The translations under genes and the position numbers were made by a program. Source: Desulfobacterota bacterium AH_259_B03_O07 (GTDB lineage: Bacteria; Desulfobacterota_D; UBA1144; Nemesobacterales; CSP1-2). From it: 35,265 nt of DNA. Within the stretch, counting starts at the first letter, position 1; each line of letters begins with the position of its first letter. The notes under the pieces were generated by a model. The model did no database searches. It worked only from the letters and a program-made list of their open reading frames with translations, and was not told the origin of the DNA. This document shows positions 10,363 through 21,491 of this stretch, piece by piece. The stretch lies in the NCBI GenBank assembly GCA_027717645.1, contig JALLOG010000019.1, forward strand, positions 1 through 35,265, in the 5' to 3' direction.

Positions 10363-11034
10363 TTATGGTAATTTTTGATCTTTTCTCGGTGGATGTTTTA
10401 TAATTTCTCCGCTTTCAATATAGTAGGTATCTTCCGCGATGTTAGTAGCAAGGTCTGCAACCCTTTCTATGTCCCTTGCGATTAGAATAAGCTGTATGGA
10501 CTGATCAATTGTTTTGGGATCAGAAAGCATATAGGTAATAAGTTCTCTCATTATCTGGGGTTCCAATTCGTCCACTTCGTCATCCTTTTCGCATACCTGG
10601 CGAGCGAGTTCTTCGTCCGAGTTCACAAAGGATTCTATACTTTCTCGAAGCATCTCCATGGCTTTCTCAGCCATTCTTGGTATATCAATTAGAGGTTTTA
10701 CAGGGGGTTTATCTGCGATAGTGATTACCTTTTTTGCTATATTTACTGAATGATCCCCGATTCTTTCAAGGTCATTATTTATCTTCATAATCATTGTAAC
10801 TTTCCTTAGGTCTTTAGCTTCAGGATGATATAGAGCGAGAATCTTGATAGAGAGATTATCAATCTCAATTTCCATTTTGTTTATAATGTCATCACTTTTT
10901 ATAACCTCTTCTGCTAAAATCATATTTCTTTCAATCAAAGCCCGAACACTTTTGACAATCATTTCTTCGGCAGAGGTTGCCATATTCACCAATAGCTTAG
11001 TGAGATTATTCAAATCTTCTTCAAGTTTAATCAT
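10363..11034 (-). CDS. phoU: Phosphate transport regulator PhoU
   Basis: A 223-aa all-helical protein with the two PhoU repeats, each carrying the metal-binding pattern: LERIGDHSVNIAKKV in the first and IERVADLATNIAEDT in the second. PhoU links the Pst transporter to the PhoR kinase and holds the Pho response off when phosphate is ample. GGGAGAA precedes the ATG. It is the last gene of the pst block, 92 bp after arsC, its usual place in pst operons. No intrinsic terminator is visible downstream. Confidence 0.95.
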   Translation of the reverse strand: MIKLEEDLNNLTKLLVNMATSAEEMIVKSVRALIERNMILAEEVIKSDDIINKMEIEIDNLSIKILALYHPEAKDLRKVTMIMKINNDLERIGDHSVNIAKKVITIADKPPVKPLIDIPRMAEKAMEMLRESIESFVNSDEELARQVCEKDDEVDELEPQIMRELITYMLSDPKTIDQSIQLILIARDIERVADLATNIAEDTYYIESGEIIKHPPRKDQKLP

Positions 11035-11126: not shown

Positions 11127-11543
11127 CTATTTAGCGAAAGATTTCTGAATCCAGTAGTTTATTTCATCTCTTACCTGTGTGAAAACCAGGTATTTCTCTT
11201 CATCGGAGCCTTCAAAACTTGTTGGATCAGTAAAACTCTTATGAATGTACTTTTTCGCACCGGGAAAATGCGGGCATGTTTCCTTTGCAGAGTCACAAAC
11301 CGTTATCACATAATCGAAAATCAGATCAATAAATTCATTCACACTTTTTGAGGTGTGATTTGATATCTCAATACCTATTTCTTTCATTGCTCGAATGGCA
11401 TATGGATTAGCAAATCGAGGCTTTGTCCCCGCACTATGAGCATCAAATCTGTCACCATAGAGGTTATTTAATATTCCTTCTGCCATCTGTGATCTTGCTG
11501 AGTTATGGGTGCAAATAAATAAGACCTTTTTCTTTTGACTCAT
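11127..11543 (-). CDS. arsC: Arsenate reductase, thioredoxin-coupled LMW-phosphatase type
   Basis: A 138-aa protein of the low-molecular-weight phosphatase fold. The P-loop CTHNSARS gives nucleophile C11 and R17, and the redox pair lies in VCDSAKETC (C83, C90). These three cysteines match the C10/C82/C89 relay of the S. aureus/B. subtilis ArsC, so this is arsenate reductase and not a tyrosine phosphatase. It reduces arsenate to arsenite using thioredoxin. No ArsR, ArsB or Acr3 is nearby. Instead it lies between pstB and phoU, the entry route of arsenate when phosphate is scarce. Its own ribosome site is weak. Confidence 0.92.
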   Translation of the reverse strand: MSQKKKVLFICTHNSARSQMAEGILNNLYGDRFDAHSAGTKPRFANPYAIRAMKEIGIEISNHTSKSVNEFIDLIFDYVITVCDSAKETCPHFPGAKKYIHKSFTDPTSFEGSDEEKYLVFTQVRDEINYWIQKSFAK

Positions 11544-11671: not shown

Positions 11672-12580
11672 TTATCCAAATTTACCGGAGACATAGTCCT
11701 CTGTCTGTTTGTTAGTAGGCCTTAGGAATATGTTTTCTGTTATGTCGTATTCAATTATCCTTCCCAAATACATAAATGCAGTATAGTCTGAAACCCTAGC
11801 CGCTTGTTGCATATTATGTGTGACAATTACAATTGTATAATTTTGTTTGAGCTCGGTTATCAGATCCTCAATTTTCCCCGTTGCAATTGGGTCTAGATCA
11901 GAGCAAGGTTCATCCATTAGCAGGACTTCAGGCTCTACTGCGATAGCTCTGGCAATGCAGAGTCTTTGCTGCTGGCCGCCAGAAAGGCTTAATGCACTTT
12001 CTCCCAACCTGTCCTTTACTTCTTCCCATAGGGCTGCTCCATTTAGACTATTTTCTACTATCTCATCCAGATCGGTGCTGTTCTTAATTCCAGATAGTCT
12101 TGGTCCATAAGCTACATTTTCATAAATTGACTTGGGAAATGGATTAGATTTCTGGAAAACCATTCCAACCCTCTTTCTGAGTTCTGTGACGTCAATATTT
12201 GAGTCGTAAATGTCTTCGCCACTTATCTTTACCGATCCTTCTATTGTTACGCCATCAATTAGGTCATTTAAACGATTTAGGCAGCGAAGAAGTGTGGATT
12301 TTCCACATCCAGATGGGCCAATAACGGCAGTGGCATGATTTTTGGGAATATCGATTAATATATCGATTATGGCGGGCTTACCATCATACTCGAGAGTAAG
12401 GTTTTCAATCTCAACGATGGGATCTGAAATTTCTAATTGATGGCTTCTACCTTCTTTCCTTATGCTGTCTTGCTTTTTATCCTCTAGATTTTGTTTTATC
12501 AATTGATCAGATTTTTTTAAGATTTGGTTATATTTTAGGATATTTCCCTGTACACTTGCCAAATTTAGTATAACCTCCAT
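11672..12580 (-). CDS. pstB: Phosphate ABC transporter ATP-binding protein PstB (N-terminally extended)
   Basis: The ABC ATPase of the Pst importer. Walker A is GPSGCGKST (88-96), the signature LSGGQQQ (198-204), Walker B LLMDEP (219-224), and the D-loop CSDLDP where PstB usually has CSALDP. The PstB mark [16 protein letters not shown] is present. At 302 aa it is about 45-50 residues longer than usual; the extra hydrophilic N-terminus precedes [17 protein letters not shown] overlaps the first ATG and may instead serve a TTG seven codons in, which would still leave most of the extension. Confidence 0.93.
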
Positions 12581-12630: not shown

Positions 12631-14256
12631 TTAAACACCTGGCAGAGTATACTTCTTCCTAAGGTAGTTTCTAATAATTATTGCTGTAAGATTCAATATT
12701 ACAACTATTAAGATAAGTAATAACGTAGTTGTAAATATCATGGGCTTAGCTGCTTCTACATTAGGGGATTGAAATCCTACATCATAAATGTGGAAACCAA
12801 GATGCATAAATTTTCTCTCAAGATGAATAAATGGGAAATGGCTATCAATCGGAAGATCGGGAGCAAGTTTAACAACTCCCGTGATCATAAGAGGTGCCAC
12901 TTCTCCAGTGGCTCTTGCAATTGCTAGGATAACCCCTGTAAGAATCGCTGGCATTGCACTTGGGATCATGACTTTCCAGGTGGTCTCAAATTTTGTGGCT
13001 CCTAGTGCTAGTGAGCCTTCCTTTACTGCCCTCGGGACTGCTGCCAAACCTTCTTCTGTTGCCACAATCACAACAGGAACTGTCAATAAAGCGAGTGTTA
13101 ATGATGCCCATAGGATGCCACCCGTTCCGAGAGTTGGTGTAGGTAGGGACTCTTTAAAGAATAGGCTGTCTATAGTCCCACCAATACCATATATGAAAAA
13201 ACCCACAGCAAAAATTCCAAATACTATAGATGGGACTCCAGCGAGGTTGTTAACACAAATTCTTACTATTCTCACAAGTAGCCCCTGTTTTGCATATTCT
13301 CTGAGATAAAGGGCGGCAAGCACTCCAAATGGTAAAACAACTATGCTCATTATCACGACCATCAACACCGTGCCAAATATTGCAGGAAAAACACCACCCT
13401 CTGTATTCGCTTCTCTTGGGTTGCCCGAAACAAATTCCCAAAGTTTAGAGAAATAAATTAGTAATTTTTCAAATATACTCATTGAATTGGGACGGTAAGC
13501 ACGAACGATAGTTCCTATCGACATTTCTTTTTCTCTACCGTCGATAGTTGAGATTGTTATCCTGTTTTGATTAAGTTGTTTATAGAGGGATGTAAGCTTA
13601 GATTCCTCTTCTTGAAAGAGTTTATTTTGGTCCTCAATCTTTTCTTCAAGTTTTTTGATGGAACTTTTATTTTCTCCTCTCTCAAGTTCCAGTTTGCGGA
13701 TTTGTAATCTGAGTTGTGAAATATTATAGTTGATATCACCTATCTTCTTTTTCTCTATCCTCTTTATTTCCTTATGGATTTCATGGGTCTTAGGAAGGAG
13801 GGATTTAAGAACAGGCCATGACTCCACATTTCCGGTGGCTATTGTCGTTCCGTCTGATCGGATCCCTTTAATAAATCCATACATATTGCCCCATTCAAGT
13901 CTTTCTAAAACAACAGCATCTTTTGGATATTCTATACTTTTAATCTGATTTTCGTCTATCCATTTGAAATCCAATCCATAAAGGTCGCGATTTCCGATCT
14001 TTAACTGAATTCTGGAATCCTTGTTTTTAGCAACGGCTTCACCGGGCTCGGGCTTTTTCTCACGGTTTGATATTTCTCCCATGTAATAAGTGCCGTCATT
14101 CAGTTCTATAACGGCAATGTCTGAAGGCCAGAAGAATCCTAATCCCTTATACATTATGAGAAAGAGCAGGCCACCGATCATAATCAGGCTAAAAACAAGC
14201 GAAAGGCCTGTTAGCCATATAAAAGGATCACCACTTTTCCAGGAATTTTTTTTCAT
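12631..14256 (-). CDS. pstA: Phosphate ABC transporter permease PstA with coiled-coil extension
   Basis: The C-terminal half (about 285-535) is a normal PstA permease with the EAA loop [22 protein letters not shown]. The N-terminal half is extra: a TM helix at about 14-36, then about 220 soluble residues that include a long heptad coiled coil (about 155-235, rich in K/E/L/I). Total length is 541 aa, against about 300 for the short form. Long PstA proteins with an added N-terminal domain are known in proteobacteria, paired with long PstC as here. The ATG overlaps the pstC stop (ATGA), so the two are translationally coupled. Confidence 0.92.
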
Positions 14257-16580
14257 AATTGACCGTATTTTTTCCTAAGCCTTTGTCTTACTAATTCTGC
14301 AGCAGTGTTTAACACGAATGTTACGAAAAAAAGTAAAAGTGCTGCAAGGAATAAAACTCTATAGAGTGTCCCCCCGTGTGGGGCTTCTGGAATTTCAACA
14401 GCTATATTTGCCGAAAGCGCCCTAAAACCGTTAAAGATAGACCAATCCATGATAGGGGTATTACCCGTTGCCATAAGCACAATCATTGTTTCTCCAACTG
14501 CTCTTCCAAGTCCAATCATGATTGCTGAAGATATTCCTGCACTTGCCGTTGGAAGGACTACTTTAATAGCTGTTTGCCATCTGTTGGCGCCTAGAGCCAA
14601 AGAGCCTGCGGTTAAATGCTTAGGTACATTTGATAAAGCATCTTCAGCAATACTGAAGATTATAGGAATTACTGCAAATCCCATTGCAAAACCGACTATC
14701 AAAGCATTCCTCTGATCATATTGGAGCCCAAGAACCTCAAATAGCCAATTTCTATAATCTCCGCCGAATAACATATTTTCTAATGGGGTATTTAACCAAA
14801 TACTAATCAGGATCCCTAAAATTATTATTGGTATAAGGAGGAAAAATTCGGTTCCTTCTCTAAACCTGGCATGAATAAACTTTGGCAAGTACTTCCAAAG
14901 AATCATAGCAACTAAAGTTAATATTGTTATGACTAAGGGCATCAAAAAAACTGCTGGAATAATTTTCTCAATGTAGGGTGCAAGCCAGAGGCCAGCAAAG
15001 AATCCCAAAACAACACTGGGTAGAGCTGCCATAATCTCTATAATGGGTTTAATAACATTTCTCATAGATGGGTGCATAAACTGAGAAACGCAAATAGCAC
15101 CCAATAATGACAATGGAATTGCAAAGATAAGAGCATACAGTGCTCCCTTCAGAGTGCCATAGGCGAGTGGTGTAAGGCTCAATTTTGGTTCAAACTCGTC
15201 TGTACCCCCAGTAGACTGCCATACGTAATCAGGTTTCGAATAACCCTCATACCAAACCTTACCGAAAAGTGTTTTTAAATTTGTCTCAGGATGTGGATTA
15301 TCAATATCCCAGTCATAAAAAACACCCTTTTGGTCAATTGCAAGGATGCCGTTTGCTTTTGGGGCGAATGCAATTGCTACTATTGAGGAACCTTCAGTAC
15401 TGAGCTGAAGCAACGTTTGATTTGATGTTGCGTGGTGGAGAGAAATATTACCACTACTATCGGCACTCAGAAAGCTCCTGTCTCTGGAGGATGAAGCAAT
15501 ATTTGTAATGGGTTGGTTGTGAGATTTAAAATGATGAATCTTTTGAAGTTTTCTTCCAATAGGTGAAGTTTCATCTTCAACTTGGAACCAGACAGATACG
15601 ACACCCGAAGCATCTCCTACTATAAGTGAGCGATCTCCTAGCAGGAATCCAAGTGCCGTTAAAGGAGTACCTGGTGGTGCAGTAGCACTTATGACATCCA
15701 CTAGTTTTGGATTCTGTTTATCACTTACCGACCAATGATATAGTCTTCCTTCTTTAGTGCCAACATAGAGGTTATCCAGAAAGCTATCCAGTTCTAAGGA
15801 GGTGACATTGTCTCCTTTTAGGCCTGAAGTTAAATCGTGTTTGAAAAGATTTTTTATTTCGTCGCTAATTAGGCTGCTGGACGTTTCTACTGAGACAAAA
15901 ACAAGTCTGCCATCAGAGGTAATTACAGCAGCAGCCCTTGAATCATCACTGGATTGATTATAGGCCAGCTTGTTTAACGTAATTGATTCAACTAAAAATG
16001 GCTCACCTTCAAATAGCCTTGGCTCGATGATTCTTTTTCCTTCCTGTGTAAAACTTACTTTAAAATTGATTTCTACTGGTAAAACATATCCATCTTCAGT
16101 TCCCAAGGCGTATTGTTTGTTATTTGATGACTCGAAAATTGAACTAACATTTTTTCCTTCTATTTTCGAAAGAGGAACTTGTTTTATGATGCTTCCATCT
16201 TTTAAGGATATAAAATTAATTTTTCCAGTTTTTGTGATGATAAACCCTATTTCTCTATATTCATCCAGCCCTATAGCAAATATGGGAATAGGTTTGTTGA
16301 ATGGAGTGTCATCGGTAATAATTATGGCTATTCCGGCGGTTTGTTTGATGTCGAATCTGCCAGATAAGTCAGCTTTAACTCCCCTCCAAAGGGGAATGAC
16401 CTCTATAGTAATAAAGAAAAGGATAGCTAGGATACTGAGAATAATTGCAATACCACCTGATGTTACTACCAGGCGGGCAAAGAAATCAGCAATCTGCCTT
16501 TTTCTTTTAATACGAGATTTAAAAGCGGATTGCAGATAAATTTTATCTTCTACATCCTTAAGTCTAGTGATGACGGACAT
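14253..16580 (-). CDS. pstC: Phosphate ABC transporter permease PstC with WD40-like propeller domain
   Basis: The protein has an N-terminal TM helix (about 34-66), then roughly 400 residues of WD40-like repeats (ALGTEDGYV, VGTKEGRLYHW, VGDASGVVSVW, LSADSSGNISL, AIDQKGVFYDW). The permease domain follows with its EAA loop (SNVPKHLTAGSLALGANRWQ). By topology the propeller should lie in the periplasm, where it could meet PstS or the matching PstA domain. Total length is 775 aa, against about 320 for short PstC. The ORF track starts at TTG 16586; the ATG at 16580 is preferred. It lies 33 bp behind pstS. Confidence 0.93.
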   Translation of the reverse strand: MSVITRLKDVEDKIYLQSAFKSRIKRKRQIADFFARLVVTSGGIAIILSILAILFFITIEVIPLWRGVKADLSGRFDIKQTAGIAIIITDDTPFNKPIPIFAIGLDEYREIGFIITKTGKINFISLKDGSIIKQVPLSKIEGKNVSSIFESSNNKQYALGTEDGYVLPVEINFKVSFTQEGKRIIEPRLFEGEPFLVESITLNKLAYNQSSDDSRAAAVITSDGRLVFVSVETSSSLISDEIKNLFKHDLTSGLKGDNVTSLELDSFLDNLYVGTKEGRLYHWSVSDKQNPKLVDVISATAPPGTPLTALGFLLGDRSLIVGDASGVVSVWFQVEDETSPIGRKLQKIHHFKSHNQPITNIASSSRDRSFLSADSSGNISLHHATSNQTLLQLSTEGSSIVAIAFAPKANGILAIDQKGVFYDWDIDNPHPETNLKTLFGKVWYEGYSKPDYVWQSTGGTDEFEPKLSLTPLAYGTLKGALYALIFAIPLSLLGAICVSQFMHPSMRNVIKPIIEIMAALPSVVLGFFAGLWLAPYIEKIIPAVFLMPLVITILTLVAMILWKYLPKFIHARFREGTEFFLLIPIIILGILISIWLNTPLENMLFGGDYRNWLFEVLGLQYDQRNALIVGFAMGFAVIPIIFSIAEDALSNVPKHLTAGSLALGANRWQTAIKVVLPTASAGISSAIMIGLGRAVGETMIVLMATGNTPIMDWSIFNGFRALSANIAVEIPEAPHGGTLYRVLFLAALLLFFVTFVLNTAAELVRQRLRKKYGQL

Positions 16581-16613
16581 AAACAATTAGCGAATCACAG
16601 AATAGTCTATGAT

Positions 16614-17627
16614 TCATTGGATTTTTTCTAGTTGTTTTTCAGCAATATTAGCCGTTAGTGGTAAATATCCATCTTTAATTACAACTTCTTGACCTTCTTT
16701 ACTTAGTATGAATTTTAAAAATTCTTCTCTTATTGGGTTTAGGTGCTTATTGGGTTCCTTGTTAATATAGAGGTAAAGAAATCTTCCAAGAGGGTATGAG
16801 CCATTGATAACATTTCCCAGATTCGGCTCTACACATGAGCCCCCGTCTTTTGAAAGTGGCACATCTCTGACACCTGAAGTTTTGTAACCGATACCACTAT
16901 AACCTATTGAATATTGATCCTCAGCTACACCCTGAACTACAGAAGCGGAACCAGGCTGTTCTTTCACGTGGTCTTTATAGTCACCTTTACACAACGCGTG
17001 TTTCTTTATATATCCATAGGTACCAGATGCTGAATTTCTACCATACATGCTTATAGGGCGATTTGCCCAATCACCTGTAAGACCTAATTGTCCCCAAGTT
17101 ATTATGTCTTCGGTTCCTCCACATTTTCTTGTCCTTGAGAAAATTGCATCCACTTGTTCAATGCTGAGACATTCTATTGGATTATCTTTATCAACATAAA
17201 TTGCGAGTGTGTCAATGGATGTACTAATTCTAGTGGGTTTATAGCCGAATGCTTTTTCAAATCTATCTATTTCGGTATTTTTCATAGCACGTGACATGGG
17301 CCCAAACTGTGCCGTTCCCTCAATAAGAGCAGGCGGTGCAGTACTCGAGCCCTTTCCCTCTATCTGGCATCTAACGCTTGGATAAAAATTGTTGAAGCCT
17401 TCGCACCATAGTGTCATTAAATTATTCATAGTGTCTGAGCCAATACTGTTAATATTCCCTGATACACCACTGACCTTTATATAATTTGGTATGTTAGAAT
17501 CTACCTTGACTGGCCCTTGAGCATTGACTCCTTGTGAATTAAATAGAGCACCAACAATTAGAGCAAAGATCGTTTGACTAAATACTAATCTAAATTTTAT
17601 AATGATTTCAGACAGTTTAATTCTCAT
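16614..17627 (-). CDS. pstS: Periplasmic phosphate-binding protein PstS
   Basis: A 337-aa substrate-binding protein with a Sec signal peptide (hydrophobic core FALIVGALF, likely cleavage after VNA at about residue 35). Phosphate-site motifs are visible: GSDTMNNLM, GKGSSTAPPALIEG, FGPMSRAM and GRNSASGTYGY. It binds phosphate in the periplasm and delivers it to PstCA. GGGAGGAAC precedes the ATG. Four 11-bp-spaced TTAA-centred repeats lie 52-92 bp upstream, so it should be strongly PhoB-controlled. It is the first gene of pstS-C-A-B-arsC-phoU. Confidence 0.95.
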   Translation of the reverse strand: MRIKLSEIIIKFRLVFSQTIFALIVGALFNSQGVNAQGPVKVDSNIPNYIKVSGVSGNINSIGSDTMNNLMTLWCEGFNNFYPSVRCQIEGKGSSTAPPALIEGTAQFGPMSRAMKNTEIDRFEKAFGYKPTRISTSIDTLAIYVDKDNPIECLSIEQVDAIFSRTRKCGGTEDIITWGQLGLTGDWANRPISMYGRNSASGTYGYIKKHALCKGDYKDHVKEQPGSASVVQGVAEDQYSIGYSGIGYKTSGVRDVPLSKDGGSCVEPNLGNVINGSYPLGRFLYLYINKEPNKHLNPIREEFLKFILSKEGQEVVIKDGYLPLTANIAEKQLEKIQ

Positions 17628-20029: not shown

Positions 20030-20078
20030 TTACCTCTTATCATTTAAGTCAAATTCAATGAAGAAAAAGGAGGAAAGT

Positions 20079-21491
20079 ATGATATATGCGATTAGATTGC
20101 TGGCACTTGTAGTGCTTTGCACACAACTATTTATAGTACAGTCACAAGCACAAAACCAAAGTGGTAAGCAAGTAGCACAGAAAAGGAGTGATATTGAGGA
20201 GCTAAAAAGGCGGATAGATGAGATTCAGAGACAAAACCAGAAGCAGATTGAGGAACTTCGGAAAAAGATAGAACAGCTTGAGTCTGAAAGGGCATCTGAA
20301 AAAGAGGCTGCAGAGAAAGTCATTGCTAAGGAAAAGGAAGATAAAGATGCTTGGTATAACAAGTTCGAAGCTGGATATAAGAAAGGATTGTTCTTTAAAA
20401 CAAATGATGGGAACTTTTTAATGAAAATGAGACTACAAACACAGTTTCAATTTTCAGTGAATGATACGGATGATGAAGACACTGCTACAGATTTCCGCAT
20501 AAGAAGGTTTAGGGTGAAGTGGAATGGACATGCCTTCAGACCCTGGTTTCTGTACACAATTCAATTAGACGCCGATAGTGGAGATGTAAGATTGAGGGAT
20601 GCTTATTTCGGTGTCGCTTACAATACTGGAATTGTGCCAAGGGTGGGCCAGTTCAAGGTTCCCTTCAACAGGGAAAGGTTAACTTCATCGTCAAGCTTAC
20701 AGCTTGTTGAAAGATCCATTGTAAGTGATGAATTTAGTATCGGACGTGACATTGGTGGTGGATTATACGGGATATTTGGAAATATGATTACATATGGTGG
20801 TGGAATTTTTAACGGGGACGGAAGAAAAGCCAGGAGTACAGATTCCAATCTACTTTATGCCGGGAGAATACAATTTAATCCTTGCTGTGGAAAATTGAAG
20901 TATAATGGTGAAGAATTCCCTTCGGGGGGTTCTTATAAGTTAGTGCCGAACTTCGGTGGCAGACAACCTATTGTAGCTATTGGAGGCGCATTTTATACTT
21001 TTCCGGGTCTGAATATCGCTAGAAAAACCCCCGATGATCAGGGCATTGAAGAAAGGTTTTTGGAGCTAGGTATCATAAGAGGAAATGTATCGGGGATAAG
21101 TGCTGATATTGCTTTCAAACAAACAATCTATAGTTTTGTAGCTGAATATGACGGAAGGTGGATAGACCCGAAAGAGACAATAGATAGTCGTGTTTTAGAT
21201 ACCATATACGATCAGGGGTTCAGGGTTCAGGGTGGTTTTTTCTTGCTACCACATTATATAGAGGTTGCTGGAAGGTGGGCATATGTAAGATATGATAAAG
21301 TAGAAGGTTTAATTCCTGTATTGGTTGCAAGGAAAAGCAGATGGCAGATCACCCCTGGGCTTAACTTTTATCTCTCGGGGGATCACAGGTGGAAAATCCA
21401 GCTTTCCTATAATTTTATCAAAAACAAATTTTTAAACGGTGATGATATTAATGAAAACATAGTTAGAGCACAACTCCAGGCATATTTCTAA
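20079..21491 (+). CDS. oprP: Phosphate-selective porin, OprP/OprO family
   Basis: The protein has a signal peptide (cleavage after QSQA), a periplasmic coiled coil of heptads (about 25-75, DIEELKRRIDEIQRQ...), then a beta-barrel with the OprP/O pattern (RRFRVKWNGHAF, PRVGQFKVPFNRE, LVERSI) and a C-terminal aromatic residue (QAYF). OprP trimers form anion channels for phosphate or pyrophosphate. The ORF track starts at 20058, but AAGGAGG at 20067-20073 lies 5 bases before the ATG at 20079. That start also gives a cleaner signal peptide, so it is used here (470 aa). A Pho-box array precedes it. No terminator is visible. Confidence 0.9.
   Translation: MIYAIRLLALVVLCTQLFIVQSQAQNQSGKQVAQKRSDIEELKRRIDEIQRQNQKQIEELRKKIEQLESERASEKEAAEKVIAKEKEDKDAWYNKFEAGYKKGLFFKTNDGNFLMKMRLQTQFQFSVNDTDDEDTATDFRIRRFRVKWNGHAFRPWFLYTIQLDADSGDVRLRDAYFGVAYNTGIVPRVGQFKVPFNRERLTSSSSLQLVERSIVSDEFSIGRDIGGGLYGIFGNMITYGGGIFNGDGRKARSTDSNLLYAGRIQFNPCCGKLKYNGEEFPSGGSYKLVPNFGGRQPIVAIGGAFYTFPGLNIARKTPDDQGIEERFLELGIIRGNVSGISADIAFKQTIYSFVAEYDGRWIDPKETIDSRVLDTIYDQGFRVQGGFFLLPHYIEVAGRWAYVRYDKVEGLIPVLVARKSRWQITPGLNFYLSGDHRWKIQLSYNFIKNKFLNGDDINENIVRAQLQAYF

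Follow-up and report, generated by a model that had tools for sequence, protein, structure and literature searches.

A widespread long type of the PstSCAB phosphate importer with predicted periplasmic modules in PstC and PstA

High-affinity phosphate import is by textbook account the task of the Pst system, which also provides the input to the pho regulon, and the locus described here raises the question of why both Pst permeases should carry large additional domains. In the window (the whole stretch of DNA that was analysed, 35,265 nucleotides), open reading frame (ORF) calls and profile matches placed a pst operon on the minus strand with the gene order pstS-pstC-pstA-pstB-arsC-like-phoU, preceded by phoR- and phoB-like genes. 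The pst and phoU genes were:

16614..17627, minus strand: pstS, with an apparent N-terminal signal peptide (TIGR02136, above cut-off)
14253..16586, minus strand, TTG start: pstC, long type, 777 aa (NCBIfam TIGR02138, 201.4 bits versus a cut-off of 196.45)
12631..14256, minus strand: pstA, long type, 541 aa (NCBIfam TIGR00974, 244.5 bits versus a cut-off of 193.45)
11672..12580, minus strand: the pstB ATPase (TIGR00972, 400 bits)
10363..11034, minus strand: phoU (TIGR02135, 207 bits)

Membership in PstSCAB followed from PstC and PstA exceeding the curated family cut-offs, which they cleared via their permease cores only, and from PstS, PstB, and PhoU scoring above cut-off and being encoded adjacently on one strand as a single operon. 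By these profile matches the system is a long-type PstSCAB phosphate importer, with phosphate transport itself predicted and PstS the presumed docking partner of the PstC and PstA extensions. The start of pstA overlaps the stop of pstC by 4 nt (ATGA), and an alternative ATG start of pstC at 16580 would yield a product of 775 aa. In PstB, the conserved ATPase domain, matched at residues 56-302, is preceded by approximately 55 residues. A thioredoxin-type arsenate reductase-like gene scoring under the NCBIfam cut-off lies between pstB and phoU (11127-11543, minus strand), as it does in many relatives (e.g., loci L034, L041, L042, L053, L058, and L073), and may handle arsenate entering via Pst.

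An insert of approximately 405 residues follows transmembrane (TM) helix 1 of PstC. An AlphaFold2 model based on an alignment of 69 PstC proteins (mean pLDDT 89.6; TM2 from residue 472) was combined with profile and structure searches, giving the following parts of the protein:

16389..16481, minus strand: TM helix 1, residues ~36-66 (AlphaFold2 model; hydropathy and charge)
15300..16376, minus strand: seven-bladed WD40-type propeller, residues 71-429 (AlphaFold2, Pfam beta-propeller matches, Foldseek)
15174..15299, minus strand: linker from the propeller to TM2, residues 430-471 (conservation, alignments)
14256..15173, minus strand: permease core, residues 472-777 (TIGR02138, PF00528)
14796..14960, minus strand: extra TM hairpin of long-type PstC, residues ~543-597 (AlphaFold2 model)

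The propeller was modeled with pLDDT values mostly of 90-98 that were low around residues 81-100. It comprises seven four-stranded blades (residues 102-429) and its ring is closed by the N-terminal strand 71-79 completing the last blade, an architecture that the model and Foldseek identify as a WD40-type ring. Foldseek searches with the PstC model retrieved WD40 propellers (E 3e-16) and a prokaryotic WD40 domain (8e-14), and the isolated insert matched several Pfam beta-propeller families (best E 6.5e-11), which were eukaryotic subfamilies matched under their curated cut-offs in nearly all cases. As the insert did not reach the cut-off of the Pfam WD40 family PF00400 (16.4 bits versus 27, E 0.014), it is WD40-type by fold rather than a curated WD40 member. 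An earlier note on this DNA had proposed about 400 WD40-like residues after TM1, which these results bear out as a confidently modeled seven-bladed propeller. The most conserved part of the insert is the linker 430-471. The two extra TM helices, overlooked in the earlier note, sit between the usual TM3 and TM4 in the model, and the inter-anchor stretch containing this hairpin had a length of 85-88 residues in almost every intact PstC of the long type, including those devoid of a propeller.

PstA carries its insert, of approximately 245 residues, in the same place after TM helix 1, and was modeled from 61 sequences (mean pLDDT 82; insert mostly 84-95 with dips around residues 71-80 and 191-200). 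The parts distinguished were:

13834..14130, minus strand: beta-domain, residues 43-141 (AlphaFold2 model; conservation)
13573..13830, minus strand: antiparallel helical hairpin, helices 143-191 and 197-228 (AlphaFold2 model; conservation)
13489..13572, minus strand: further strands 3' of the hairpin, residues 229-256 (AlphaFold2 model)
12634..13395, minus strand: permease core, residues 288-541 (TIGR00974, PF00528)

In the model, strands at 47-141 are followed by the helices 143-191 and 197-228, strands at 231-254, and then the permease core, while the beta-domain contains the conserved motifs KxGNRD..GxDFxW and ER.EWG. The presence of an insert after TM1 agreed with the previous description of about 220 soluble residues with a long coiled coil, which needs amending in size and in that the 'coiled coil' corresponds to a helical hairpin within a single chain, mounted on a beta-domain.

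A periplasmic location of both inserts, as had been suggested earlier, is supported by the charge distribution, by a depletion of cysteine, and by sequence homology with the 9k3s chains. Nine K+R compared to three D+E residues precede TM1 of PstC, both inserts occupy the TM1-TM2 loop, the first on the periplasmic side in the fold that these permeases have in common with E. coli PstC and PstA, and the inserts were free of cysteine in 161 of 176 PstC and 153 of 176 PstA proteins.

Comparison with known Pst systems separated the shared core from the additions. The E. coli PstSCAB (PDB 9k3s, 9k3x, and 9k3y) has the same operon logic with PstS, PstB, and PhoU and matches the PstC and PstA permease cores by sequence and PstA also by fold, whereas its PstC (319 aa) and PstA (296 aa) have no room for either extension. 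The medium PstC and PstA of the alphaproteobacteria are both enlarged, in step with each other (494 and 440 aa in Sinorhizobium meliloti), but the PstC extension lies at the N-terminus, has hydrophobic segments, and includes no propeller-length loop insert. The S. meliloti PstC and PstA match DUF3708 and DUF3333 at 1e-59 and 3e-54, respectively; the window proteins did not match DUF3708 (PF12501) or DUF3333 (PF11812) at E <= 1, the Pseudomonas aeruginosa pair hit neither family, and membership of the window extensions in these families was rejected on that result. The P. aeruginosa long pair belongs to the same family as that of the window, with a PstC frame of 777 aa and a PstA of 558 aa bearing propeller-length and hairpin-length inserts. 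Its PstC is annotated from a later start (677 aa) and only as 'ABC transporter permease subunit', and scores 189 versus the NCBIfam PstC cut-off of 196.

The distribution of the long type was scanned in one genome per species for 84,980 species, from which the best 80 long-PstC loci were taken. ORF calls showed a long pstA adjoining the long pstC in 74 of these best 80 loci, and the other six had a long PstA elsewhere in the assembly (three), a cut at the contig end (two), or a broken PstA (one). Mostly from metagenome-assembled genomes (MAGs) with possibly wrong taxon names, the best 80 loci carried titles of the Deltaproteobacteria, Nitrospirae, Nitrospinota, Dadabacteria, Binatota, Methylomirabilota, Rokuibacteriota, Planctomycetota, Armatimonadota, Latescibacterota, KSB1, Acidobacteria, Gemmatimonadetes, Omnitrophota, Bacteroidia, Haloferula, and several Proteobacteria. 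Among 150 genomes drawn evenly from the phylum of a Methylococcaceae MAG (L123), strong matches to the PstC insert occurred in 14 and strong matches to the PstA insert in the same 14; inspection revealed a diverged pair in G091, and G126 and G162 had a reduced PstA insert together with a PstC without propeller. Throughout the order of G126, PstC and PstA sizes fell into matched long, medium, and short classes, the long class comprising 32 genomes with a long PstA of which 30 had a long PstC frame and two a PstC incomplete near a contig end. The long PstC/PstA pair is widespread, P. aeruginosa included. The pairing emphasized in the earlier note consequently holds in bulk (74 of the best 80 loci, the same 14 of 150 genomes, and matched size classes) and is not strict, as the hairpin or propeller has been lost in places.

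The long pair prevails within the order and class to which the window belongs, and some genomes hold both long and short types. A short PstC/PstA pair was identified in two genomes of the window's family, G001 (L044) and G002 (L045), and the long pair was not detected in either. The pstA of G003 (L048 3122-4613, minus strand) consists of two overlapping frames, perhaps due to an assembly frameshift. These gene neighborhoods also bear on a possible role of the extensions in anchoring the importer to the envelope, by reaching toward peptidoglycan or an O/P-type porin and so channelling phosphate from the outer membrane. An O/P-type porin gene encoding an N-terminal coiled-coil-like stretch is situated near the window pst operon (20058-21491, plus strand) and several other long systems likewise have porin genes in their vicinity, yet the same porin type adjoins the short system in G002 and most long loci had no porin visible nearby. 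Alpha-helices rise 0.15 nm per residue, such that the 49-residue helix of PstA spans only about 7 nm, and such anchoring is very unlikely.

The modularity of the extensions was measured on alignments of 176 long-type operons, a non-random set in which many loci had been fetched on account of the variation noticed in their family. Of the 176, 145 combined a PstC insert of propeller length with a full PstA hairpin, and 11 had an insert of that length together with a lost (seven) or shortened (four) hairpin. A partial PstC insert of 200-250 residues occurred in 10, where the hairpin was short or lost, and the propeller was absent in a further 10, with the hairpin short (five) or lost (five). A reduced propeller with a full hairpin occurred in none of the 176. 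In the permease-core tree, every propeller reduction fell within one clade and parsimony required one change, so the common shrinkage of the two parts there does not count as independent statistical support; a tree-based association of the two losses was discarded as evidence, one clade being one history and not many. This gammaproteobacterial family exhibits stepwise shrinking of the propeller, in sizes of about 350, 240, 50, and 13 residues (L157, L158, L199, L205, L208, L212, and sisters), with shortened or lost PstA hairpins, and its members with the propeller down to a 13-residue linker keep PstS, the PstA beta-domain, and both permeases. The hairpin was lost with the propeller kept in six Nitrospirota genomes, in G429 from another phylum, and in a gammaproteobacterial clade, i.e., in at least three lineages. 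Although derived from few events, this suggests that the hairpin relies on the propeller more than vice versa, and the losses in some lineages make the extensions accessory modules.

Accessory modules might merely stabilise or shield the permease pair, aiding folding or protease resistance without a specific partner. Their erosion or loss in separate lineages with a conserved permease core is in line with this role, but the extensions are kept over many phyla and residues are conserved in the hairpin and linker, and we consider it unlikely. WD40-type propellers generally serve as protein-binding platforms, and the propeller could instead bind another periplasmic protein such as a phosphatase, thereby coupling phosphate release and uptake. 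The transporter survives propeller loss as expected of an optional partner, yet pst-related queries revealed no other gene constantly adjoining the long system, leaving this coupling rather improbable. The E. coli Pst transporter is established to signal through PhoU, and phoU, often joined by phoR, is linked to the long system, as would suit a signalling module reporting the state of the transporter or periplasmic phosphate to PhoR/PhoU. Such a module is nevertheless doubtful and has a low probability in our assessment: the called ORF of the window PhoR-type kinase includes only a short N-terminal membrane part, E. coli Pst signals without any extension, and propeller-less systems, which retain PstS, PstB, and PhoU, still have phoU adjoining (L157 and L158). 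Phosphate sensing by the extensions and their reach to the porin, both raised in the earlier note, found no support in this analysis.

The tentatively favored explanation, which we hold possible at somewhat below an even chance, is that the extensions form a periplasmic scaffold capturing and positioning PstS at the channel mouth in the manner of the MalF P2 loop. The P2 loop of MalFGK2 is also a large folded periplasmic insert in a type I importer permease, and the likeness is of how it works, with no homology of the inserts claimed. The P2 loop contacts the binding protein, but differs in fold and belongs to a single subunit, in a different loop, whereas the window PstC and PstA both carry inserts after TM1; by charge, cysteine depletion, and homology these are likewise predicted on the periplasmic side of the permease. 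According to titles of papers cited in PMC3328499, the P2 loop of MalF interacts with MalE during the entire cycle and signals whether substrate is available. By analogy, the PstC propeller and the PstA beta-domain and hairpin, which begin at the opening of the translocation pathway, the expected landing site of PstS, may capture and position PstS there, and its delivery might thereby become more efficient at low phosphate.

The computation supports the folds, periplasmic side, conservation, pairing, and modular loss of the extensions. Conserved insert residues are located in the beta-domain and the distal hairpin half of PstA and in blades 5-6 and the pre-TM2 linker of PstC, a placement as expected of a docking surface near the mouth. 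In most relatives whose locus extends far enough, pstS precedes the long pstC, and the PstS proteins of long operons constitute one family, scoring 344-501 versus 113-233 for the short and medium systems examined. It is the position of the inserts at the mouth, this single PstS family, and the conserved residues that favor the docking scaffold. PstS of the propeller-less clade scored 344-390 bits compared to 373-396 in sisters with a propeller-length insert, and a divergence of PstS accompanying propeller loss was dismissed as these ranges show no special shift. Since this clade keeps the same PstS family, docking cannot strictly require the propeller, and loss of the hairpin in at least three lineages counts against the scaffold. 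Mean-field DCA between the inserts (156 pairs, Neff 116) ranked inter-protein pairs among its top scores at chance frequency in a run that also did not clearly recover the expected intra-protein contacts. The propeller had a mean net charge of -14 and the PstA insert one of -6.5, and a positively charged phosphate funnel was rejected, with propellers being positive in only 6% of cases. An extended form of the docking scaffold, in which the propeller and PstA beta-domain/hairpin would make up a joint vestibule around PstS that arose apart from MalF P2, occurs in many phyla, and was dismantled stepwise in one gammaproteobacterial family, is speculative and on balance unlikely.

A search of the open-access literature for PstC with WD40 or a propeller gave nothing relevant, which is no proof of absence, and titles and abstracts there on topology and periplasmic domains did not describe the long Pst form. 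The long-type PstSCAB variant with periplasmic modules is apparently undescribed so far, and no Pfam domain scores above cut-off in its periplasmic half. The graded propeller loss within one gammaproteobacterial lineage renders the role of the modules testable by single-module swap or deletion and, if the vestibule around PstS is real, this family would be a natural deletion series for scaffold function. The solved Pst structures found are of the short E. coli type, whereas many bacteria, P. aeruginosa among them, use the long type.
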